A stretch of 64,000 bases of DNA from an uncultured Flavobacteriaceae bacterium (GTDB taxonomy: Bacteria > Bacteroidota > Bacteroidia > Flavobacteriales > Flavobacteriaceae): positions 1 to 64,000 of the forward strand of contig CANNGA010000006.1 of the NCBI GenBank assembly GCA_947504035.1, written 5' to 3'. Every line of letters starts with the position of its first letter. Position 1 is the first letter of the stretch. Both the position numbers and the translations under genes were made by a program. A model generated the notes under the pieces. The model was not told the DNA's origin, searched no databases, and saw only the letters and a list, made by a program, of their open reading frames with translations. Positions 280 to 14,958 of this stretch are shown in pieces.

Positions 280-1410
280 TTAGAGTTTAATCAATTTTAT
301 GTTATTAAAGCCATTAATTGTTTTGAGTTCAACAAAATAGACTCCTGATTTAAAAGGAGAGGCATCTATAATGATGTTGTTTTTATTAGCAGGTAATTCT
401 ATAACTGTTTTGCCAAGGTTATTTATAACACGTACAGATTCTATAGTGTTGTTTGGGTTTGAAATGTGCCAAGTATTTTGTGTAGGGTTAGGGTATGCTA
501 TGGTGTTATGTGATGTATTTGTAAGATCATTAAGTGCTAGCGTATTTAAACGTTGCGCAAACATCCAGTTCCAAACGTCTTGGTTGTTATAGGTTTTTGT
601 CCAAGCATCATGTCCACCATTTTTATATAGTGTAAATGCTAAATGATCTACAGGTGCATTTACACCAGAAGCTGTGGTCCAAGTGTTAGAGGCTGTATTG
701 AATTGCATAGAATAATCAGCATCTGCTACGGTTCTATTTGGCCCATAAGGATACACAGACATTACAGAAGTTTCAATAAAAGCAATTCTATTCATATTGT
801 TAATAGTTTGCCCAATCGTAACGATTTTGTCTTCAAAATTATGATGTGCCCAAATTGGAGTTTGCTGTAATGTCGATGCATTATCTTGTACTCGACCCGC
901 TCCACAAATAGGAACAGCAGCGGCAATTTTGTCACTGTGTTCCTTTAAAGCATTCCATGTACTCCCACCACCTGCACTCAAACCTGTTACATACACACGG
1001 TTTGCATCTATGGGGTAGTTGCTAATGATATAATTGTAAAGCGACAAAAAATTAGCAGAGCTAAACCAACCAGAACTACTTTGAGGAGAAATAACAATAG
1101 CTTCAAAGGTATTTCCTTGTGCGATGTATCGAGGAACGCCTGTAACTAACAATTTAGAAAGTTCTGTAGTGCCATTACCTTTTTCGCCTAAACCGTGATA
1201 AAATAAGATTAAAGGGTAGGTTTTGGATGTTGTTGGATTAAAGTCTGTTGGTAAATATTCATAATATCCAAATGGAATATTAGGCGTGTCTTTAGGAACA
1301 GCAGTATGTGTTCCAGCGGTTCCAAAAGGAGCTTGGGCATAAAAATTTTGAGACACAGTAGATAAAAGAATGAAATATATTAAACTATAAAGTATCTGTT
1401 TACTATACAT
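280..1410 (-). CDS. Secreted alpha/beta-hydrolase (esterase-like) with T9SS sorting domain
   Basis: A 376-residue exported hydrolase. Residues 1-26 form a signal peptide ending near YAQ. The middle is an alpha/beta-hydrolase of the esterase D / PHB-depolymerase-like type: LILFYHGLGEKG near residue 67 supplies the oxyanion region and GLSAGG near 143-148 the nucleophile elbow, with Ser145 as nucleophile. A late GGHD probably carries the catalytic histidine. The last 75 residues begin with YPNPTQ and end FNNIKLIKL, a typical type A C-terminal sorting domain read by the type IX secretion system, so the enzyme is probably surface-attached or released. The substrate (carbohydrate ester or peptide) cannot be told. 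It appears monocistronic. Confidence 0.8.
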   Translation of the reverse strand: MYSKQILYSLIYFILLSTVSQNFYAQAPFGTAGTHTAVPKDTPNIPFGYYEYLPTDFNPTTSKTYPLILFYHGLGEKGNGTTELSKLLVTGVPRYIAQGNTFEAIVISPQSSSGWFSSANFLSLYNYIISNYPIDANRVYVTGLSAGGGSTWNALKEHSDKIAAAVPICGAGRVQDNASTLQQTPIWAHHNFEDKIVTIGQTINNMNRIAFIETSVMSVYPYGPNRTVADADYSMQFNTASNTWTTASGVNAPVDHLAFTLYKNGGHDAWTKTYNNQDVWNWMFAQRLNTLALNDLTNTSHNTIAYPNPTQNTWHISNPNNTIESVRVINNLGKTVIELPANKNNIIIDASPFKSGVYFVELKTINGFNNIKLIKL

Positions 1411-2582: not shown

Positions 2583-4787
2583 TTAAGCTTCTAAAGCTTC
2601 TGGTTTTCCAACCAATGTGAAATCTAAATGTTTTTTTACTAAGTCGGTATTTTTTACTTTTACGATAACCTCATCGCCTAGCTGGTATGCTATTTTGTTT
2701 GTTCTTCCTACCATGGCGTATAGGTCTTGGTCGAAAGCGTAATGGTCGTCAGTCATGTCGCGAACACTTACCATACCTTCACATTTATTCGCAATAATTT
2801 CCACATAGATACCCCAGTCTGTAACCCCCGAGATAACGCCTAAGAACTCTTGGTCTTTATGGTCTTCCATAAAGCGTATTTGCATATATTTTATCGAATC
2901 GCGTTCGGCTTTAGTGGCTAACATTTCCATACTACTGGAATGGTTGCATTTTTCTTCGTAAAGTTCTTCATTAGCAGGTTTACCACCATCGATATAGTGT
3001 TGTAGTAAACGGTGCGCCATCACATCTGGATACCGTCTTATGGGAGATGTAAAATGACTGTAATAATCGAATGCTAAGCCATAATGACCAATATTACGTG
3101 TGGTATATTCGGCTTTACTCATACTTCTTATGGCTAAAGTATCCACTAAATTTTGTTCCTTTTTACCTACAACCTCTTTTAGCAATCCATTTAAAGATGC
3201 TGTGGTAGATTTTCTGTCTGTAAAATTAAGCTTATACCCAAAACGACTTACCACATTTTGTAATGCTGCCAACTTGCTTTCGTCGGGTTCGTCATGCACA
3301 CGGTACACAAAAGTTTTTTTAGGCGATTGCTTGCCAATAAATTCTGAAACTTTTCGGTTTGCCAGAAGCATAAACTCTTCAATAAGTTTATTGGCATCTT
3401 TACTCGTTTTAAAATAAACGCCTTCTGGATTATTGGCTTCATCTAAATTAAATTTCACCTCAACTTTATCAAACGAAATGGCGCCATCCCGCATGCGTCT
3501 GCCTCTCATTATTTTGGCCAGTTCGTCCATTTTTAAGATGGCATCTGCTAGTTTTTGATCGGTTTGATAAGCTTTTCCTGTTAGAGACACATCTTCTGGA
3601 ATGGTATTGGTTTTAGATTCGATTACAGCTTGCGCTTCTTCATAAGCATAACGAGCATCACTGTAAGTTACAGTACGTCCAAACCATTGGTCTTTAATTT
3701 CAGCTTTATCATTCATTTTAAAGACTGCAGAAAAAGTGTATTTTTCTTCGTGAGGCCTTAAAGAACAGGCTTTGTTAGATAATACCTCTGGAAGCATGGG
3801 GACAACCCTATCCACCAGATATACAGAAGTTGCACGTTCGTAAGCTTCGTCGTCTAGTACGGTGCCTTCTTGCAAATAGTGTGATACGTCTGCGATGTGT
3901 ATGCCAATTTCATAAAGGCCATTGTCTAAAACTTCAAACGAAAGCGCATCATCAAAATCTTTAGCATCTTTAGGGTCGATAGTAAAGGTTAAGTCTTGAC
4001 GCATATCGCGGCGTTTGGCAATTTCTTCTGCTGTAATAGATGTGTCTATAGCATTAGCATAGGCTTCTACTTCGTCAGGAAATTCGTGAGGTAAGCCATA
4101 CTCGGCTAAGATGGCATGAATTTCTGTATTGTGTTCCCCTGGTTTCCCTAAAATTTGGGTAACTTTACCATTAGGCGAGTCTGCTTTGTCAGGCCAATCT
4201 TCAAGAGTAACTAATACTTTATCGCCATCTTCAGCTTTAAGTGTTTTATTAATAGGGACAAAGATGTCTTTATACATTTTAGAATTGTCTGGTACTACAA
4301 AAGCATAATTATTGTTTTTCTGCATTTGTAACACTCCAACATATTCTGATTTAGCACGTTTAACGATGGCTGTAATTTCGCCTTCTCTTTTACCACGCTT
4401 AGGGCGCTTGTAGGCATAAAATTCTACCTGATCGCCATGCAAAGCTTTATTGATGTTATTTGAAGCAATAAACACGTCTTCTTCAAAAGCATCACAAATA
4501 ACGTAGCCATTGCCTTTGGCAGCCATATCTAAGGTACCAATATGGTACTCTGCGTTAGTTACAGCTTTAAATTTACCACGTTCTATTTGTTCAATTTCTT
4601 GTTTTCCAGCCAGTTTGGCTAGAGTCTTTATGATTTGATTTCTGCTGCTAGCATCGTTAAGACCTAGTTTAGAAGCAATTTGCTTGTAGTTAAATGTTTT
4701 AGTGCGTTCCTTTTTAAGGATGCTCAGTATGGTGTTGGTAAGGTTGTTTATCTTAGAATTAGATGTCCTTCTTTTTTTTCTTGCCAT
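2583..4787 (-). CDS. rnr: Ribonuclease R (RNB-family 3'-5' exoribonuclease)
   Basis: This 734-residue enzyme has the full RNase R order. An N-terminal basic winged-helix region (NYKQIASKLGLND) is followed by cold-shock/OB domains to about residue 220, then the RNB catalytic domain. The RNB domain carries TIDPKDAKDFDDALS near residue 270, whose aspartates bind the catalytic metals, and the HYSHFTSPIRRYPD-type block with HYGLAFDYYSHFTSPIRRY near 570. A C-terminal S1 domain (GVISGVTDWGIYVEI, about 645-725) completes it. RNase R degrades structured RNA processively from the 3' end in the cytoplasm. The length is normal for Bacteroidota. The gene is single with its own leader and terminator. Confidence 0.97.
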   Translation of the reverse strand: MARKKRRTSNSKINNLTNTILSILKKERTKTFNYKQIASKLGLNDASSRNQIIKTLAKLAGKQEIEQIERGKFKAVTNAEYHIGTLDMAAKGNGYVICDAFEEDVFIASNNINKALHGDQVEFYAYKRPKRGKREGEITAIVKRAKSEYVGVLQMQKNNNYAFVVPDNSKMYKDIFVPINKTLKAEDGDKVLVTLEDWPDKADSPNGKVTQILGKPGEHNTEIHAILAEYGLPHEFPDEVEAYANAIDTSITAEEIAKRRDMRQDLTFTIDPKDAKDFDDALSFEVLDNGLYEIGIHIADVSHYLQEGTVLDDEAYERATSVYLVDRVVPMLPEVLSNKACSLRPHEEKYTFSAVFKMNDKAEIKDQWFGRTVTYSDARYAYEEAQAVIESKTNTIPEDVSLTGKAYQTDQKLADAILKMDELAKIMRGRRMRDGAISFDKVEVKFNLDEANNPEGVYFKTSKDANKLIEEFMLLANRKVSEFIGKQSPKKTFVYRVHDEPDESKLAALQNVVSRFGYKLNFTDRKSTTASLNGLLKEVVGKKEQNLVDTLAIRSMSKAEYTTRNIGHYGLAFDYYSHFTSPIRRYPDVMAHRLLQHYIDGGKPANEELYEEKCNHSSSMEMLATKAERDSIKYMQIRFMEDHKDQEFLGVISGVTDWGIYVEIIANKCEGMVSVRDMTDDHYAFDQDLYAMVGRTNKIAYQLGDEVIVKVKNTDLVKKHLDFTLVGKPEALEA

Positions 4788-6167: not shown

Positions 6168-7664
6168 ATGTCGATAAAATCAATATTAGCAAAACCCTTT
6201 GCCAAATATGTGGCGCATAAGGTTGAGAAATGGGCGAGCAACCCCATTGAAACACAGGAACGTGTTTTTTTAGATTTAATTGAAAAAGCCAAGCGTACGG
6301 CATTTGGAAAAGATCATAATTTTGAGGAAATCACGTCTTATCACGATTTTAAAGCACGTGTACCTGTAAGAGATTATGAAGCTGTAAAGCACTATGTAGA
6401 ACGTGTAGTTGCTGGAGAAGAGAATGTGCTTTGGGAGGGTCTGCCTTTGTATTTTGCGAAAACCTCAGGAACAACTTCGGGCTCTAAATACATACCCATC
6501 ACAAAAGCCAGTATGCCAAGCCATGTTGAGGCGGCTAGAAATGCGATTTTATTATACATTAACGAGACTGGAAAAAGCAAATTTGTAAACGGTAAGATGA
6601 TTTTTTTGCAAGGAAGCCCAATTCTGAACACTCAAAATGGTGTTCAATTAGGACGCCTTTCGGGTATTGTTGCCCATTATGTGCCAAAGTATTTGCAAAA
6701 AAACAGATTGCCCTCTTGGGAAACCAACTGTATTGAAGATTGGGAAACTAAAGTAGATGCTATCGTAGAAGAAACGTTGCCAGAAGACATGACTGTAATT
6801 TCGGGAATTCCATCGTGGGTACAGATGTATTTTGAAAAACTACAGCAGAAAACGGAGCAAAAAGTAGGTGCTGTTTTTAAGAATTTTAGTTTATTTATTT
6901 TTGGAGGGGTAAATTATGAACCTTATCGGGCAAAATTTGAAAACTTAATAGGCCGAAGCGTAGATAGTATAGAATTGTACCCTGCTAGTGAAGGCTTTTT
7001 TGCATTTCAAGACAAACAAAACATTAAAGGGATGTTGTTACAGCTAAATTCGGGAATTTTTTACGAATTTATAAAAACAGACGATTTTTTTAATGAAAAC
7101 CCAGAACGTATTACCATTAAAGATGTGGTACTTGGTGTAAATTATGTTATGATCATTAGTACAAATGCTGGATTATGGGCTTATAATATTGGCGATACGG
7201 TACAGTTTACACATTTAAAGCCTTATAGAGTTATTGTTTCTGGGCGGATAAAACATTTTATTTCTGCATTTGGAGAACATGTTATAGGCAAGGAAGTAGA
7301 GCAAGCCATGCAGGAAGCTATAGCACAAACAGCTATTCGTATTTCTGAATTTACTGTAGCGCCTCAAATTAACCCCAAAGAGGGATTGCCCTATCATGAA
7401 TGGTTTGTGGAGTTTGAAAATCTACCAGAAGATATAGAGGATCTCGCAAAAAAGCTAGATGCTTCTTTACAAGCGCAGAACACCTATTATTTTGATTTGA
7501 TTGAAGGAAAGGTGTTGCAACAATTAAAAATAACCTGTGTGAAGAAAAATGGTTTTGAAACTTACATGAAATCTATAGGAAAATTGGGTGGACAAAATAA
7601 AATACCACGATTGTCTAATGACAGAAAGATTGCAGATGTGTTATCTAATTTGGTTGAAAAATAA
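6168..7664 (+). CDS. GH3 auxin-responsive promoter family (acyl-adenylating/amido synthetase-like) protein
   Basis: A 498-residue member of the GH3 branch of the ANL adenylating superfamily. The three nucleotide-binding blocks known from plant GH3 enzymes are visible: SGTTSGSK at residues 100-107, YPASE at 271-275 and YNIGD at 339-343. Plant GH3 proteins adenylate carboxylates such as jasmonate or auxin and couple them to amino acids. What the bacterial versions do is poorly known. The gene sits 3 nt after an M23 peptidase and 29 nt before the next gene, suggesting an operon. The family assignment is strong, but the reaction here is an inference. Confidence 0.88.
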   Translation: MSIKSILAKPFAKYVAHKVEKWASNPIETQERVFLDLIEKAKRTAFGKDHNFEEITSYHDFKARVPVRDYEAVKHYVERVVAGEENVLWEGLPLYFAKTSGTTSGSKYIPITKASMPSHVEAARNAILLYINETGKSKFVNGKMIFLQGSPILNTQNGVQLGRLSGIVAHYVPKYLQKNRLPSWETNCIEDWETKVDAIVEETLPEDMTVISGIPSWVQMYFEKLQQKTEQKVGAVFKNFSLFIFGGVNYEPYRAKFENLIGRSVDSIELYPASEGFFAFQDKQNIKGMLLQLNSGIFYEFIKTDDFFNENPERITIKDVVLGVNYVMIISTNAGLWAYNIGDTVQFTHLKPYRVIVSGRIKHFISAFGEHVIGKEVEQAMQEAIAQTAIRISEFTVAPQINPKEGLPYHEWFVEFENLPEDIEDLAKKLDASLQAQNTYYFDLIEGKVLQQLKITCVKKNGFETYMKSIGKLGGQNKIPRLSNDRKIADVLSNLVEK

Positions 7665-7693: not shown

Positions 7694-9385
7694 ATGGAAC
7701 ACACCAAAAGGTACGAAAGAACCAGAGCTCAAGAAAGCTCCAATGCTATAGAACGTATGTACGTTGCTATGCGTCATCTTTTTAATAGAGGCTTTTATAA
7801 ACCAATGGGGGTTTCGGGAGAAACCTTACGTCAAGCCTTATTGTCACTGCGTCCCGAAATATATGGTTCTGTAGCAGAAGAGCGTGTAGAACTTAAAGGA
7901 TTATTATACGTTATAGATAGGTTGCCTAGAGGTATTGAAGAGTGCTCTCGCATTAATCTTACTAGCGACGAAGGGTATTCTAAGTCCCACTTCACCTCTA
8001 TTGTACCAGAAAAAAGACGACGTAATTGTTACCGTATAGATGATGAGCAAATGAATATTGAGATGACCAGAGGACGGTCTGATATTTATGATATCATGAC
8101 GCACCTTACGTTTCTTTTTATTGAATCTCATAAAATTAGTAAAAGTGTTATTATAGATGAGTTAGGTACTACATCTAAGGACTGGCAAAAGCTTGAAAAA
8201 GTAGTGAAATCTACTAAAAAGCTATCTCAGAAAGAAAGAGAAATTGCTACTTCTTATGCAGCCAGTATTTTAGGGCGTTCATTTAGTGAAATAAGTGATA
8301 TTTATAACGATTTTGCAGTTAATACGCAGCCAGAACGCTTTTTGCATATTATATATTGGTTAGGCAAGCAAGCCATTGCAGAGCAGGTTTCAAACGATAA
8401 GCGTTTGGTGACTTTTAGTCCCATATTAAGAGAAGAAATAGGGCATCATATTCATGGTGGTATTTGGGCGCATACTGTTAAAACAACACTTTATAAACGA
8501 AAACTTTTAGACAGGCCTATTCATATTATTAGTGCCAATATGCATAGTGTGATGAATACTCTGTTTGCGCCTTCAAGCTTAAAAACATTAGCTTCAAAGC
8601 ATGATATTTTTGAAGTGTATAAAATGTTGAGTGATAATGCCAATAAGGCATTAAGAGATAAAGTTAAGGTAGAGGCAGATAGGTATGGGATGCTTCATAT
8701 TGATGATACATCTGGTGCAAATATTGACGTACAGATATTTGATACAGATCGGTTGGACTATTCAAAATTGGATATTAAAAATGATGAATCTGTTTTAAAG
8801 TCAAAAAAACCAGTTATATTGGTCATGGATTATGCTTTTGGAGAGCAAGCCTATGAGACTATTGATGAATTATTAAAGCCTTTTGAAACCGAACAGGGGG
8901 CATTAGTACATCTAGATGTAGAGTCTGTTTCAATAATGGGTAAAGCAGGAATTTTAGAAGGTGGCAAAGGGGATATTATGATTCCATCTGCGCATATTTT
9001 TGAAGGTACTGCCGATAATTATCCGTTTAAAAACGAATTAGCGAAAAAAGATTTGGAATGCCAAGGGGTTTCTGTTTATGAAGGTGCTATGATTACGGTT
9101 TTAGGAACCTCGCTTCAGAACAAAGATATACTAGAGTTTTTTCACGAATCCACTTGGCGCGTTATAGGACTCGAAATGGAAGGCGCTCACTATCAAAAAG
9201 CAATTCAAGCGGCTTCTAAAGTAAGAGGAAGCATAAAAAAAGATGTTAAAGTAAGATATGCGTATTACGCGAGTGATAACCCTTTAGAAACAGGGAGTAC
9301 ATTAGCCTCAGGAGGCTTAGGAACGTCTGGTGTTAAACCAACGTATTTGATAACGAGAACGATTTTAGAACAGATATTTAATTAG
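7694..9385 (+). CDS. Conserved flavobacterial protein (DUF6909-like) with nucleoside-phosphorylase-like C-terminal region
   Basis: A 563-residue soluble protein with no signal peptide. I recognise it as a conserved Flavobacteriaceae protein, probably the family called DUF6909, with no assigned function. The N-terminal half (to about residue 360) is helical and charged. The C-terminal 200 residues carry three blocks in the order seen in nucleoside phosphorylases and nucleosidases: a Gly-rich MGKAGILEGGKGDIMIP at 415-431, GLEMEG at 492-497 and a late SDN at 527-529. Catalysis is therefore possible but unproven. It follows the GH3 gene by 29 nt and precedes the polysaccharide locus by 8 nt. Confidence 0.7.
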   Translation: MEHTKRYERTRAQESSNAIERMYVAMRHLFNRGFYKPMGVSGETLRQALLSLRPEIYGSVAEERVELKGLLYVIDRLPRGIEECSRINLTSDEGYSKSHFTSIVPEKRRRNCYRIDDEQMNIEMTRGRSDIYDIMTHLTFLFIESHKISKSVIIDELGTTSKDWQKLEKVVKSTKKLSQKEREIATSYAASILGRSFSEISDIYNDFAVNTQPERFLHIIYWLGKQAIAEQVSNDKRLVTFSPILREEIGHHIHGGIWAHTVKTTLYKRKLLDRPIHIISANMHSVMNTLFAPSSLKTLASKHDIFEVYKMLSDNANKALRDKVKVEADRYGMLHIDDTSGANIDVQIFDTDRLDYSKLDIKNDESVLKSKKPVILVMDYAFGEQAYETIDELLKPFETEQGALVHLDVESVSIMGKAGILEGGKGDIMIPSAHIFEGTADNYPFKNELAKKDLECQGVSVYEGAMITVLGTSLQNKDILEFFHESTWRVIGLEMEGAHYQKAIQAASKVRGSIKKDVKVRYAYYASDNPLETGSTLASGGLGTSGVKPTYLITRTILEQIFN

Positions 9386-9393
9386 TAATTATT

Positions 9394-10461
9394 ATGAGTG
9401 AAAATTTACCAAAGCAACCACAACAATCATCAGATGAGGTAGATTTAGGGCAGGTGTTTAAGCTGATCGGTAATATGTTTGATCGGTTTTCTAAGTTTAT
9501 AGCTAGTATTTTTAATGGTATTTTTAAGTTAATTGTACAAATTCTTTCTCATTTTTATAAGCGTTACATTTGGTATGTTGGTGCTGTTGTTATAGGGGGT
9601 ATTGGAGGTTATTTTTGGGATAAAAACTCTACGGATTTATATGCTGCAAATATGACAATTGAAACTAACTTTAGCGCAGCAAGGCAGGTCTATGAAAATA
9701 TAGCAGAATTTCACCAATTAGCTTATGTTGATAAAGATTCTGTAGAGCTGTCTGAAAGATTGAATATTTCTAGATCGGACGCGTCTAAATTAAAAACCTT
9801 TAGTATTGAACCAATTATTAACGAAAATGTGATTGCAAAATCGTATTCGGAATTCTATTTGAATTTAGATTCCATATCTCGTTTAGAAATGACCTATGAT
9901 AGATATAAAGCATCTTTAACTATAGATGATCACAGGACGCATAGTATAAATTTAACGACTACAGATAAAACGATATACGAAAAGATAGCTGACGGATTTG
10001 TGGGAGCATTATCTAGTAACCCCTATCTAGATGAGATTTTAAAAACTAATGTAGACATTCTTAAAAAGCAAGATAAAGCACTGGAGAAACAAGTAGAATT
10101 AACGGACTCCTTGGTTAAACAGTACTTAAGTATTAGGGTTAATGAGTCTAAAAAACCTAATGCGAATAATTCGGCGACTAATGTTTACATGAGGGAATCA
10201 AACTCTGCTGGATTGTTTGTTAATGAATTAGAAGTTTTAGAGGTGAAAAATCAATATGAAAAAGAAAGGAGATCTATTGATAGTTTGTTGGTGAATCAAA
10301 ATAATGTGATTAACGTATTGACTAAGTTTCCAAAAACGGGTTATGAAGTAGGAAGCTGGACTAATAAAAAGAAGTTGAGCTTACCTCTTTTATTAGCAGT
10401 ATTTGTAGCTTCTATATTTATGTTGATTGGATTAGGAAAATTTTTAAAAAAGTTAAATTAG
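9394..10461 (+). CDS. Wzz-like polysaccharide chain-length determinant / inner-membrane protein
   Basis: A 355-residue protein with two membrane helices, at about residues 56-75 and 330-350, enclosing a periplasmic helical and coiled-coil region. This is the topology of Wzz/PCP chain-length regulators. It lacks a tyrosine-kinase domain, so it would be a PCP-1-like or otherwise short version. The N-terminal 55 residues are unusually long for the cytoplasmic side. Placement immediately before rfbB (18 nt), at the head of the polysaccharide gene array, supports a role in assembling that polymer. The family match is by topology and context rather than by a strict motif. Confidence 0.6.
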   Translation: MSENLPKQPQQSSDEVDLGQVFKLIGNMFDRFSKFIASIFNGIFKLIVQILSHFYKRYIWYVGAVVIGGIGGYFWDKNSTDLYAANMTIETNFSAARQVYENIAEFHQLAYVDKDSVELSERLNISRSDASKLKTFSIEPIINENVIAKSYSEFYLNLDSISRLEMTYDRYKASLTIDDHRTHSINLTTTDKTIYEKIADGFVGALSSNPYLDEILKTNVDILKKQDKALEKQVELTDSLVKQYLSIRVNESKKPNANNSATNVYMRESNSAGLFVNELEVLEVKNQYEKERRSIDSLLVNQNNVINVLTKFPKTGYEVGSWTNKKKLSLPLLLAVFVASIFMLIGLGKFLKKLN

Positions 10462-10478
10462 TATAATATTTAGATTAA

Positions 10479-11489
10479 ATGTATATTTTAATAACAGGAG
10501 GGTCGGGGTTTATTGGTTCAAATTTTATACATTTTTTTTTGAATTCTAATCCTTCTTCTAAAATAGTCAATTTAGATAAGTTAACATATGCGGGTAGTAC
10601 TTCTAATTTAAAAGCTGTCGAACACCATTTAAATTATGATTTTGTTCAAGGTGATATTTGTGATAGAGGTTTAGTAGAGCGCTTATTTAAAACATACAAT
10701 TTCTCGGGTGTTATTCATTTTGCTGCAGAGTCTCATGTTGATAATTCAATAGTTTCTCCAGGTGCATTTATTGACACAAATATATTGGGGACGTTTAATC
10801 TACTTGACGTTGCTAGAAATCACTGGATGTCGGGTGCTCATTCAATAAAAGAAGAGCATGAGCGATCAAGGTTTTTACACATATCAACGGATGAAGTCTA
10901 TGGGTCTTTAGGAGAAAAAGGGTTGTTTACAGAGCAAACTGCTTATGCTCCAAATAGTCCTTACAGCGCTTCAAAAGCGTCATCAGATTTTATCGTTAGA
11001 AGTTATTTTCATACTTATGGAATGAATGTTGTGACCACAAATTGCTCTAATAATTATGGTCCAAACCAGCATGACGAGAAATTAATTCCTACTATCATAA
11101 GGAAAGCATTAAGTGGTGCCCCTATTCCAATCTATGGAGATGGTAAAAATATTAGAGATTGGCTGTACGTGGAAGACCATTGTAAAGGAATAGATCTTGC
11201 ATTTAGAGAAGGGATAGCTGGGGAAACTTATAATATCGGAGGCAAGAATGAGTGGGATAATTTGAGTATAGCGCGTTTTATTTGTGATACTTTAGACAAG
11301 ATTAAACCCAAAGAAGAATCGTATATAAAACAAATCTCTTTTGTAAAAGATAGACCAGGTCATGATTATAGATACGCTATTGATGCTTCTAAAATAGAAG
11401 AGGAATTAGGATGGAACGCTAAAGAGAATTTTGAATCAGGTATTGTTAAAACAATAGACTGGTATATTAAGAAATATGAATCATTATGA
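10479..11489 (+). CDS. rfbB: dTDP-glucose 4,6-dehydratase
   Basis: A 336-residue extended short-chain dehydrogenase. [10 protein letters not shown] at residues 7-16 binds [11 protein letters not shown] contains the dehydratase active-site Asp-Glu pair, and YSASK at 162-166 is the catalytic Tyr/Lys. It converts dTDP-D-glucose to dTDP-4-keto-6-deoxyglucose, the second step of dTDP-L-rhamnose synthesis. It overlaps rfbA by 4 nt and belongs to the compact set rfbB-rfbA-rfbC-rfbD. The length is typical. Confidence 0.96.
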
Positions 11490-12343
11490 AAGGGATTATA
11501 TTAGCTGGAGGGTCTGGAACACGATTATATCCCTTAACAAAGGTTGTGAGTAAGCAGTTGATGCCTGTTTATGACAAACCAATGATATACTATCCATTAA
11601 CTACGTTAATGTCTAGTGGAATTAGAGAAATTCTTGTGATTTCCACCTCTAAAGATTTACCTAGATTTCAGGAATTATTAGGAGATGGTAGTGCTTATGG
11701 GTGTAGGTTTGATTATGAGATCCAAGAGGAACCAAGAGGTTTAGCTGAAGCTTTTATTATAGGAGAGTCTTTTATAGGAAGTGATAGTGTCGCGTTAATT
11801 TTAGGAGATAATATATTTTATGGTTCTGGCTTGAGTAAGGCTTTACAAAGCAATACAGAGCCAAATGGAGGTGTTGTTTTTGCGTACCATGTTCAAGATC
11901 CTGAGCGGTATGGCGTCGTTGAGTTTGATAGTGATAATAAAGTGATTTCCATAGAAGAAAAACCAGAACAGCCTAAGTCTAATTTTGCAATTCCTGGTAT
12001 TTATTTTTATGATAATTCTGTAATAGAAATAGCAAAAAATATAGGCCCAAGTCAACGAGGAGAATTAGAGATAACAGACGTTAATAAAGAATATCTCAAT
12101 AGAGGTTTACTCAAGGTGCAATTGCTAGATAAAGGAACAGCTTGGTTAGATACAGGAACATTTATCTCTTTAATGCAAGCCTCTCAATTTGTTCAAGTTA
12201 TTGAAGAACGACAAGGGCAAAAAATAGGATGTATAGAGGAAGAAGCATATAGAATGGGATATATAAATAGAATCCAATTGAATGAATTAGCAGAGCCGCT
12301 ACTCAAAAGTGGTTATGGTAAGTATTTACAACAACTAAAATGA
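11486..12343 (+). CDS. rfbA: Glucose-1-phosphate thymidylyltransferase
   Basis: A 285-residue nucleotidyltransferase with the signature [11 protein letters not shown] near residue 8, [17 protein letters not shown], and the sugar-binding GDNIFYG block near 110. It makes dTDP-glucose from dTTP and glucose-1-phosphate, committing carbon to dTDP-L-rhamnose. It is normally feedback-inhibited by dTDP-rhamnose. It overlaps rfbB at its start, and rfbC follows directly, so translation is probably coupled. Confidence 0.96.
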
Positions 12344-12349
12344 TTGAAA

Positions 12350-12892
12350 ATGAAAGTTCAAGAAACATATATTAAAGGTTGTTTTGTACTTACACCGCGT
12401 CTTTTTGAAGATGAAAGGGGGGCTTTTTTAGAAACTTTCAATGCAAATTCTTTTAGAGATAAAACGGGAATTAAGACCAAGTTTGTTCAGGATAATTTAT
12501 CACAATCCTCTAAAGGTGTGTTGAGGGGCTTGCATTTTCAGAAAGGAGAGAATGCACAAGCAAAACTAGTACAAGTTATTCGTGGTAAAGTATTAGATGT
12601 TTGTGTTGATCTTAGAAAAGATTCTGCAACTTTTGGCAATTATTTTTCAATTTATCTGGATGGTATAAATAGAAAACAACTCTATGTGCCTAGGGGGTTT
12701 GCTCATGGTTTTATTGCACTTGAAGAGAATACCCTGTTTTCATATAAATGCGATAATTTTTACAATAAAGAGTCAGAGTCTGGGATACTATTTAGTGATA
12801 AGTCATTGAATATAGATTGGGGTTTGCCTTATGATGACATGTTGATTTCAGAGAAAGATATGGAGTTACCAACATTTGAAATGTTGTTTTGA
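12350..12892 (+). CDS. rfbC: dTDP-4-dehydrorhamnose 3,5-epimerase
   Basis: About 180 residues of the RmlC cupin family. DNLSQSSKGVLRGLHFQ carries the catalytic histidine, and KLVQVIRGKVLDVCVDLR and YVPRGFAHGF complete the double-stranded beta-helix core. It epimerises carbons 3 and 5 of dTDP-4-keto-6-deoxyglucose. I chose the ATG at 12350; a TTG at 12344, directly after the rfbA stop, would add two residues. The stop overlaps the rfbD start. Confidence 0.95.
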   Translation: MKVQETYIKGCFVLTPRLFEDERGAFLETFNANSFRDKTGIKTKFVQDNLSQSSKGVLRGLHFQKGENAQAKLVQVIRGKVLDVCVDLRKDSATFGNYFSIYLDGINRKQLYVPRGFAHGFIALEENTLFSYKCDNFYNKESESGILFSDKSLNIDWGLPYDDMLISEKDMELPTFEMLF

Positions 12893-13686
12893 TGAAAAAA
12901 AAAGTTTTAGTAACAGGAGCCAATGGCCAGCTGGGGCAGACAATTAAAGAGTTGTACCTAGAAAATGATTTAGATTTAGATTTTGTATTCGTATCTAAAG
13001 CGCATTTAGATATCACAAAAAAGGATGATATAGATGTCTTTTTTGAAAATACTGATTTTAAATATTGTATAAACTGTGCCGCTTATACGAATGTAGAGCA
13101 GGCAGAGAAATCACCTGAGTTAGCTTATGAAGTTAATGCCAAAGCAGTTAGGTATTTAGCTGAAGCTTGTAAAAAGCGAGAGGTGATATTGATCCATATC
13201 TCTACAGATTACGTGTTTGATGGTGAAAAAAATGAAGCATACACGATATTTGATAAAGTTAATCCTATTAATGAATATGGGAAATCTAAATTGCTAGGAG
13301 AGGTGTATATACAAGAGACTTTGAAAGAGTTTTTTATAGTAAGAACATCTTGGTTGTATAGTAAAGTTTATGGTAAAAATTTTTACAGGATTATTTTAGA
13401 AAAGGCTAAGACAGAAAAAGAGTTGCGTATAACAAACGAACAGAAAGGTTGTCCTACAGATACTGTTAACTTAGCGAAATACCTTATAAGTTTTATATCT
13501 AATGAAAATAAAGACTATAGAGTATATCATTTTTGTGATGAAAAGGTGATGACTTGGTTTGATTTTGCCAAACAAATACTATCTCAAAACAACTTATCTG
13601 GGAATATAAATCTTGTCGAAATCAACAATTATCGTACTTTTGCTAAGCGACCTAAGAACAGTATTTTGTATACGGCTTCAAAATAA
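12892..13686 (+). CDS. rfbD: dTDP-4-dehydrorhamnose reductase
   Basis: A product of about 264 residues with an N-terminal NADPH-binding VTGANGQLGQ motif, HISTDYVFDG, and the active-site YGKSK (Tyr-x3-Lys) in the middle. It reduces the 4-keto group to give dTDP-L-rhamnose, closing the pathway begun by rfbA/B/C. The ATG at 12892 shares its A with the rfbC stop codon, a classic coupled junction. A TTG one codon earlier is possible. It is slightly shorter than enterobacterial RmlD but contains all motifs. Confidence 0.95.
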   Translation: MKKKVLVTGANGQLGQTIKELYLENDLDLDFVFVSKAHLDITKKDDIDVFFENTDFKYCINCAAYTNVEQAEKSPELAYEVNAKAVRYLAEACKKREVILIHISTDYVFDGEKNEAYTIFDKVNPINEYGKSKLLGEVYIQETLKEFFIVRTSWLYSKVYGKNFYRIILEKAKTEKELRITNEQKGCPTDTVNLAKYLISFISNENKDYRVYHFCDEKVMTWFDFAKQILSQNNLSGNINLVEINNYRTFAKRPKNSILYTASK

Positions 13687-13692
13687 TTTATA

Positions 13693-14958
13693 ATGAATAT
13701 AAAAGAATATAAAATAGCTGTTATTGGCTTAGGATATGTTGGTTTACCTCTCGCAGTTGAGTTTAGTAAGAATGGATATTCGGTTTGTGGATATGATATA
13801 AATGAAATTAGAGTAAACGAATTGATAGAGGGTGTTGATATAACACACGAGGTCTCCAGTGATGAGATTAGAAGTTTGAATACAATACATTATACATCTG
13901 ATGAAGAAAGCTTGCGAGATGCAAATATTTATATCATTACTGTTCCGACACCCATAGATGAATTCAAAAAACCGGATTTAAGGCCTATTAAAGGTGCAAG
14001 TAAGCTAGCAGGAAAGTATTTATCACAAGGTGATATTGTAATATATGAATCTACAGTTTTTCCTGGTTGTACCGAAGAGATTTGCGTGCCTATTTTAGAA
14101 TCTGTAAGTGGGTTTAAATTTAATGAGGATTTTTATTGTGGATATTCTCCAGAACGAATAAATCCAGGTGATAAGGTTAGAAGAGTTCATAATATTATAA
14201 AAGTTACTTCAGGCAGCACTGAAGAGATTGCTGATGTAGTTGATAAATTATATGCTTCGATCGTTACAGCAGGAACACATAAAGCTTCATCAATAAAAGT
14301 TGCTGAAGCCTCAAAAATTATCGAAAATACGCAACGAGATTTAAACATCTCTTTTGTTAATGAATTAGCTTTAATTTTTGATAAAATGAGTATTGATACT
14401 TTAGAAGTTTTAGAAGCTGCTGGAACTAAATGGAATTTTTTACCCTTTAGACCAGGGCTCGTTGGGGGGCACTGTATAGGTGTTGATCCTTTTTATTTGA
14501 CGCATAAAGCAGAAAGTTTAGGTTACCATCCACAAGTAATTTTATCAGGAAGGAAGATTAATGACGAAATGGGAAAGCATATTTCCAATAAAATTGTAAA
14601 ACTGATGGTGAGAGAAGGCCATCGTGTAAAAAATGCTAAAGCTTTGGTGTTAGGAATTACGTTTAAGGAAAATTGTCCTGACATAAGAAATTCAAAAGTA
14701 ATAGATGTTGTTAGTGAGTTAAAAGAATTTGGGATAGCTGTTGATGTATATGATCCACATGCAGATCATCTAGAAGTAAAACATGAATATGGTATTGATT
14801 TGATTAAAAATGTTAACAAGAAGTATGACGTAATCGTTTTAACCGTAGGGCATGATGCTTTTAAAAACATAGACGTTTCTTCTCTAGCTAATGAAAAAGC
14901 TGTCATTTATGATGTAAAAAGTTTTCTACCAAAAGAAATAATAACAGATAGACTTTAG
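13693..14958 (+). CDS. Nucleotide-sugar 6-dehydrogenase (TviB/WbpA-like, UDP-HexNAc to UDP-HexNAcA)
   Basis: A 421-residue UDP-sugar dehydrogenase. It starts with the NAD-binding AVIGLGYVGLPLAVEF, has the central dimer helix, and carries the catalytic cysteine in VGGHCIGVDP (Cys261). A C-terminal UDP-binding Rossmann domain contains LGITFKENCPDIRNSK. This sub-family oxidises C6 of UDP-GlcNAc or UDP-GalNAc to the uronic acid. The next three genes complete a 3-amino-uronate route, so UDP-GlcNAc is the more likely substrate, as for P. aeruginosa WbpA. The exact epimer used cannot be read from the sequence. Confidence 0.9.
   Translation: MNIKEYKIAVIGLGYVGLPLAVEFSKNGYSVCGYDINEIRVNELIEGVDITHEVSSDEIRSLNTIHYTSDEESLRDANIYIITVPTPIDEFKKPDLRPIKGASKLAGKYLSQGDIVIYESTVFPGCTEEICVPILESVSGFKFNEDFYCGYSPERINPGDKVRRVHNIIKVTSGSTEEIADVVDKLYASIVTAGTHKASSIKVAEASKIIENTQRDLNISFVNELALIFDKMSIDTLEVLEAAGTKWNFLPFRPGLVGGHCIGVDPFYLTHKAESLGYHPQVILSGRKINDEMGKHISNKIVKLMVREGHRVKNAKALVLGITFKENCPDIRNSKVIDVVSELKEFGIAVDVYDPHADHLEVKHEYGIDLIKNVNKKYDVIVLTVGHDAFKNIDVSSLANEKAVIYDVKSFLPKEIITDRL

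Follow-up and report, generated by a model that had tools for sequence, protein, structure and literature searches.

We propose that the protein encoded at positions 7694-9385 of the window (the whole 64,000-nucleotide stretch of DNA that was analyzed, from an uncultured Flavobacteriaceae bacterium) represents a family of nucleotide N-glycosidases, most likely AMP nucleosidases, which replaces the AMN-like form (TIGR01721) in many Bacteroidota. We put the probability of this reading at roughly two in three, and the family, Pfam DUF6909, is best read as an AMP nucleosidase or a similar 5'-nucleotide nucleosidase. We found a predicted phosphorylase/nucleosidase fold, invariant Met, Glu and Asp residues, and, in the sampled genomes, mutual exclusion with the AMN-like form; we infer hydrolysis, AMP as the substrate, the roles of individual residues and that of the N-terminal half. 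In the proposed mechanism, the reaction would be AMP + H2O -> adenine + ribose 5-phosphate. The C-terminal 300 residues would form the phosphorylase/nucleosidase fold, in which the loop at residues 415-431, together with E496, would hold the ribose phosphate, and D528 would protonate the purine, leading to its release; the conserved N-terminal half probably contributes to the shape of the 5'-phosphate site, regulates the enzyme, or both. The parts of the protein that the argument needs are as follows.

7694-9385 (+): open reading frame of the DUF6909 protein (PF21850, E = 7.8e-67), proposed AMP (5'-nucleotide) nucleosidase
7694-8458 (+): residues 1-255 (N-terminal half), for the most part predicted as helices, with many invariant residues
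8459-9382 (+): C-terminal domain, residues 256-563, with the predicted phosphorylase/nucleosidase fold of the model
8531-8548 (+): S280-A-N-M-H-S285, which follows the domain's first strand; S280, A281, N282, H284 and S285 in 125/125 family sequences
8936-8986 (+): Gly-rich loop MGKAGILEGGKGDIMIP (415-431), which aligns with GKCGGL...GD of AMN-like proteins
9002-9022 (+): EGTADNY (437-443), aligned by HHalign with EGTS...Y of AMN-like proteins
9083-9127 (+): GAMITVLGTSLQNKD (464-478), with GTSLQN invariant, in the region of the AMN R381/W383 segment, where the alignment is poor
9167-9184 (+): GLEMEG (492-497), with the proposed ribose-binding Met-Glu, aligned to DMET of AMN-like proteins; E494, M495 and E496 in 125/125
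9272-9286 (+): SDNPL (527-531), with the putative catalytic Asp528; S527 and D528 in 125/125; the AMN counterpart is S-D428-(K/Q)-P

The open reading frame starts with ATG and encodes 563 amino acids. Its product is a member of DUF6909, matching the profile in two stretches with 226.3 bits against a cut-off of 27 bits. The family was thus already catalogued, of which the earlier note was unaware; Pfam assigns it no function, and a literature search found no mention of 'DUF6909' or 'PF21850'. That note had singled out three blocks as resembling those of nucleosidases and phosphorylases, and all three sit where it placed them, the Gly-rich loop at 415-431, GLEMEG at 492-497 and SDN at 527-529. 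Conservation was assessed in 125 distinct sequences, obtained from 131 loci by dropping the two loci of the window itself (L001 and L002) and one over-long reading frame (L127), and by merging identical sequences. G416, K417, A418, G419 and L421 of the loop are identical in all 125 sequences, as are G492, E494, M495, E496, G497, S527 and D528, while G426 and D427 are identical in 124. Likewise, E437, G438, D441, N442 and Y443 are invariant (T439 differs in three sequences, A440 in two), and so are the residues of MGKAGIL, GTSLQN, EMEG and SD. Because of this near-complete invariance, the three motif blocks are not a product of chance.

The 80 best of 586 confirmed bacterial and archaeal loci have 68-80% identity, with titles mostly of Flavobacteriaceae or its genera, and 20 members chosen for diversity have 50-69% identity. 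Within the order sample, all 21 genomes from the same taxonomic family as the window carry DUF6909; no relatives were found in a scan of viral contigs. It should be noted that the over-long reading frame (L127:3525-6197, genome G044) encodes 890 amino acids, the first 242 of which have no Pfam match, and that the GC content is 64% over positions 3525-4500; the extra N-terminal part is more suggestive of an open frame extending upstream than of a gene fusion.

Sequence comparison with known nucleosidase families yields no more than a hint. The PF01048 profile gives 13.9 bits (E = 0.035), under the cut-off of 25.1 bits; the alignment pairs residues 402-467 with positions 63-148 of the profile. 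It is detectable at all in 8 of 21 diverse DUF6909 members, below the cut-off, and E. coli Amn scores 76.9. The NCBIfam models of AMN, of PNP-type enzymes and of MTA/SAH nucleosidase match neither the window protein nor the 21 diverse members at E values up to 10, and a thymidine phosphorylase model matches one of the 21 at chance level (E = 0.11). A search of PDB sequences with the DUF6909 profile found nothing, and phmmer returned chance matches only or none. Neither the window protein nor any of the 21 members has AMNp_N (PF10423) among its matches, in a scan that does find this domain in E. coli Amn (173.9 bits). DUF6909 was therefore not filed in the AMN family, since the curated models fail and AMNp_N was not found; what we propose is a similar way of working, not membership.

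In profile-profile alignment, the DUF6909 and AMN profiles align over 105 columns, from GK(A/C)G...GD...EGT through (D/E)ME in the same order, and the score of 27.0 is matched by one of 150 column-permuted AMN profiles; the alignment to the MTA/SAH nucleosidase profile (38 columns, score 23.8) is matched by none of 150 permuted profiles. HHalign itself assigns AMN a probability of 5.9-6.9%, and thus we consider the AMN alignment to be supporting but not decisive. HHalign comparisons to MTA/SAH nucleosidase, to a lone PNP, to a lone uridine phosphorylase and to E. coli Amn as a single sequence were weak, with the PNP match apparently misaligned, and were set aside.

The fold was predicted with AlphaFold2 from 46 DUF6909 sequences alone, with no templates. 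The mean pLDDT of the model is 75, and 25 of 31 ten-residue blocks from residue 261 onward are at 80-94. Weaker blocks include GTSLQN (pLDDT 64) and residues 531-540 (pLDDT 53), and residues 1-140 have low confidence for the most part. A prediction from the single sequence, made with no alignment, had a pLDDT of 35 and was discarded. The earlier note had suggested a phosphorylase/nucleosidase-like C-terminal part, to be checked by structure prediction and Foldseek, and this idea gained support: run on the model, the check found the phosphorylase/nucleosidase fold, and model residues 256-563 match the purine-nucleoside-phosphorylase fold. The domain is predicted to begin near residue 256, and not at residue 360 as first proposed. 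Residues 1-255 have, beyond DUF6909 itself, only chance-level Pfam and NCBIfam matches (E = 0.05 and 0.065).

Foldseek retrieved 205 PDB chains at E values up to 0.001. Ranks 1 and 2 belong to Salmonella AMP nucleosidase (2guw; E = 1.3e-7 and 2.1e-7) and rank 5 to E. coli AMN (1t8s), although other phosphorylases trail AMN narrowly, from E = 2.6e-7 on, a two- to threefold difference at most. The target-normalized TM-score is about 0.6 for phosphorylases versus 0.34-0.38 for AMN. In VIA-align 2, the 50 rows listed have Z of 18.1-19.6, 196-223 aligned residues and rmsd of 2.5-3.1 A, the top row being a PNP (Z 19.6, rmsd 2.7, 210 residues). These rows, which cover model residues 256-563, comprise PNPs, uridine phosphorylases, MTA phosphorylases, futalosine hydrolase and MTA/SAH nucleosidases; AMP nucleosidase is absent among the 50. 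Rows within Z 1 are to be regarded as tied, and therefore the fold alone cannot choose among these enzymes. MTA/SAH nucleosidases and PNPs had been named as relatives at first; among the enzymes sharing the fold, the distribution in genomes favors AMP nucleosidase.

It is hardly credible that the protein has an unrelated fold in which short motifs line up by chance: the sequence methods taken alone are weak, as such an explanation would have it, but the structural match reaches Z 19.6 over 210 residues in a model built with neither templates nor any nucleosidase sequence, and Foldseek retrieved the 205 PDB chains mentioned above. It is very unlikely, too, that the protein is a phosphorylase like PNP or uridine phosphorylase, with phosphate replacing water as the nucleophile. 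The highest VIA-align rows (tied as they are) and the better TM-scores are in line with that assignment; however, the window's genome already has two PF01048 members, an NP-II PNP and a uridine-phosphorylase-like protein, and the family that DUF6909 excludes is named as a hydrolase.

We compared the invariant residues with those of the AMP nucleosidase active site. According to excerpts from PMC9584410, the nucleobase and sugar are contacted by N205, W383, M404, E405 and D428, and the phosphate by R381 and K436, plus H188 and Y189 of the neighboring chain; the same excerpts limit conservation in distant homologs of known structure to M404, E405 and D428. M495, E496 and D528, present in 125/125 DUF6909 sequences, match these three residues, with equivalence based on alignment and order. 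By analogy with M404/E405/D428 (PMC9584410, excerpts), the three motifs would share one pocket. N282 probably occupies the position of N205, judging from the aligned ranges of the structural matches to the model. For R381, W383 and K436, DUF6909 has no evident counterpart; counting from the motif anchors, T472, L474 and T536 fall at these positions, in a poorly aligned segment. Because the phosphate-binding Arg and Lys of Amn thus lack an evident counterpart, we infer both the substrate and the mechanism of DUF6909. The AMN-like family keeps Y189, N205, R381, W383, M404, E405, D428 and K436 in 32/32 sequences, with H188 replaced by Arg in 32/32. Since the residues of E. coli Amn are kept (H188 excepted), the AMN-like family is credibly an AMP nucleosidase.

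Searching the same genome samples for both families, we found DUF6909 and AMN-like TIGR01721 to be mutually exclusive in the genomes sampled. NCBIfam names TIGR01721 AMP nucleosidase and ranks it as a hypothetical equivalog; the protein that matches it is also matched by the equivalog NF005500. AMN was counted above the TIGR01721 cut-off in the order sample and in the samples of two families, f7 and f22. There are 52 genomes with DUF6909, 25 with AMN, none with both and 71 with neither among the 148 genomes of the order sample; the corresponding numbers for f7 (88 genomes) are 11, 61, 0 and 16. The six f7 genera with DUF6909 all lack AMN over the cut-off, and AMN is present in at least one genome of 12 of the 13 other genera. 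For f22 (148 genomes), DUF6909 is found in 75 and AMN in 62, with one genome having both (expected 31.4) and 12 having neither. At the level of genera (n = 84), 45 have DUF6909 and 37 have AMN, with three in common versus 19.8 expected. The Fisher p-values for f22, 4e-28 when genomes are counted and 9e-15 when genera are, overstate the case, because the genomes are related and not independent. The sole double-positive f22 genome (G535) has a completeness of 82% and a contamination of 5%; what it holds of DUF6909 is a piece of 88 residues, truncated where its 4.4-kb contig ends. In the phylum sample (296 genomes, overlapping the order sample), DUF6909 is present in 43 genomes and any TIGR01721 match in 129, of which nine are weak-only; none of the 43 belongs to the 120 genomes whose AMN matches reach at least 142 bits. 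The window's genome has no TIGR01721 match.

Weak TIGR01721 matches, which were left uncounted, occur in seven genomes of the order sample (six with DUF6909; 21-35 bits), in one f7 genome (with DUF6909; 31 bits) and in 12 f22 genomes (up to 66 bits; 12/12 with DUF6909); of the nine weak-only genomes of the phylum sample (21-37 bits), five have DUF6909. We took these matches to be other superfamily members, and some coincide in position with MTA/SAH nucleosidase matches. In the order sample, MTA/SAH nucleosidase, used as a control, exceeds its cut-off in nine of the 148 genomes, a count that leaves out 64 further genomes with weaker matches. All nine have DUF6909 and none has AMN; co-occurrence in 9/9 genomes means that DUF6909 does not replace MTA/SAH nucleosidase.

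These patterns bear on the possibility that the nucleosidase fold of DUF6909 serves another 5'-nucleotide or nucleoside substrate (e.g., NMN, IMP, dAMP or a modified nucleotide), and that AMN is excluded because both enzymes control the same pool. The residues R381, W383 and K436 that are not visibly kept, and the invariant blocks specific to the family, e.g., GTSLQN and DYAFGEQ, which suggest different contacts, would agree with such a substrate. Yet the complementarity is near-complete with one specific enzyme, in several samples, and MTA/SAH nucleosidase shows no exclusion; we therefore regard another substrate as unlikely.

Both gene states are found within families f7, f19 and f22, and within a single genus (g232), DUF6909 occurs in two genomes (G520 and G621) and AMN in a third (G588), with G520 and G588 being single-contig genomes. 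Several independent switches are therefore needed, if these taxa are monophyletic. We also considered short DUF6909 matches as decayed remnants of replacement, and rejected them: those in G535 and G568 are cut by contig ends and are not decayed. Returning to the AMP nucleosidase reading, we give somewhat better than even odds to its extended form, in which DUF6909 would be a second, so far unrecognized AMP nucleosidase class, distinct in its N-terminal domain and in how it holds the 5'-phosphate; it would have displaced the classical Amn repeatedly across Bacteroidota and would be the AMP nucleosidase that Flavobacteriaceae usually have.

The gene directly upstream codes for a GH3-type enzyme.

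6168-7664 (+): GH3-type enzyme, directly upstream neighbor (PF03321, E = 3.2e-42), next to DUF6909 in near relatives as well, and no part of the function proposed here

GH3 lies upstream, on the same strand and within 4 kb, at 80/80 similarity-ranked loci (L003-L082), starting within 2 kb in 74, and at 2 of 19 more distant loci (L112-L130). GH3 also served as a control in the order sample, where 143 of the 148 genomes have matches; due to this near-universal presence GH3 was not used as functional evidence; it is speculation that GH3 makes AMP which the DUF6909 enzyme clears. Conservation of the GH3 and M23 genes on the upstream side is seen chiefly close to the window's family. Downstream, positions 9394-14958 (+) hold a Wzz-like gene followed by sugar-nucleotide genes, which we take to resemble rmlB, rmlA, rmlC, rmlD and wecC; this polysaccharide cluster follows DUF6909 in many near relatives. 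Elsewhere in the window, the product of positions 280-1410 (-) is probably a secreted hydrolase; it carries a sorting tail for a secretion system (Por_Secre_tail, E = 2.4e-10), and its hydrolase matches are weak.

No conserved partner of DUF6909 was seen at the more distant loci compared (16 listed), which would fit a housekeeping enzyme, and AMN and DUF6909 share no locus among the loci compared; the gene-cluster table, in which DUF6909 itself is left ungrouped, served for the neighbors only. On one short contig only (L197:1-4411), a DUF6909 fragment lies beside genes for adenosine deaminase, a purine nucleoside permease (NUP) and a purine-type permease. These neighbors hint at purine metabolism; however, they carry little weight, because the contig belongs to the genome that has both families. 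The common neighbor at five AMN-like loci (L188, L189, L190, L201 and L202) presumably resembles alanine dehydrogenase, and a small protein adjoins AMN in L190, L201 and L202. The lack of conserved enzyme context at the 16 distant loci would also suit a catalytically silent purine-nucleotide sensor built on the nucleosidase fold, as would the conserved N-terminal half and a phosphate site that is not clear-cut, with the exclusion reflecting lineage history. Such a sensor is nevertheless highly improbable, given that the putative catalytic D528 and ribose-binding E496 are kept in 125/125 sequences and that both gene states recur within f7, f19, f22 and g232.

An AMP nucleosidase assignment provides a testable function for a highly conserved family. 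If true, it would fill a missing step of AMP breakdown in these bacteria, reveal repeated swapping of two enzymes for one job, and add a new N-terminal domain to a well-studied enzyme fold. Judged by titles and the openings of abstracts, the papers found in a literature search include no characterized AMP nucleosidase from Bacteroidota.

Of the known enzymes compared with DUF6909, the AMN-like Bacteroidota form (TIGR01721/NF005500) would have the same role, judged by mutual exclusion. Like DUF6909, it has GK(A/C)G..L..GD, EGT and (D/E)ME in order, followed by SD.P; unlike DUF6909, it is 256-308 amino acids long (32 sequences), with no comparable N-terminal half, and keeps R381, W383 and K436, whereas DUF6909 has no visible equivalents and matches no AMN model. 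Enterobacterial Amn (TIGR01717; 1t8s and 2guw), the source of the top Foldseek matches, is a two-part protein like DUF6909 and has the same Met, Glu and Asp; however, its N-terminal AMNp_N domain (PF10423; residues 12-167 of E. coli Amn) was not found in DUF6909. MTA/SAH nucleosidase (TIGR01704) shares with DUF6909 the predicted fold (Z about 18) and the ME...SD order, but in contrast to AMN, it co-occurs with DUF6909, in all nine genomes where it is over the cut-off.
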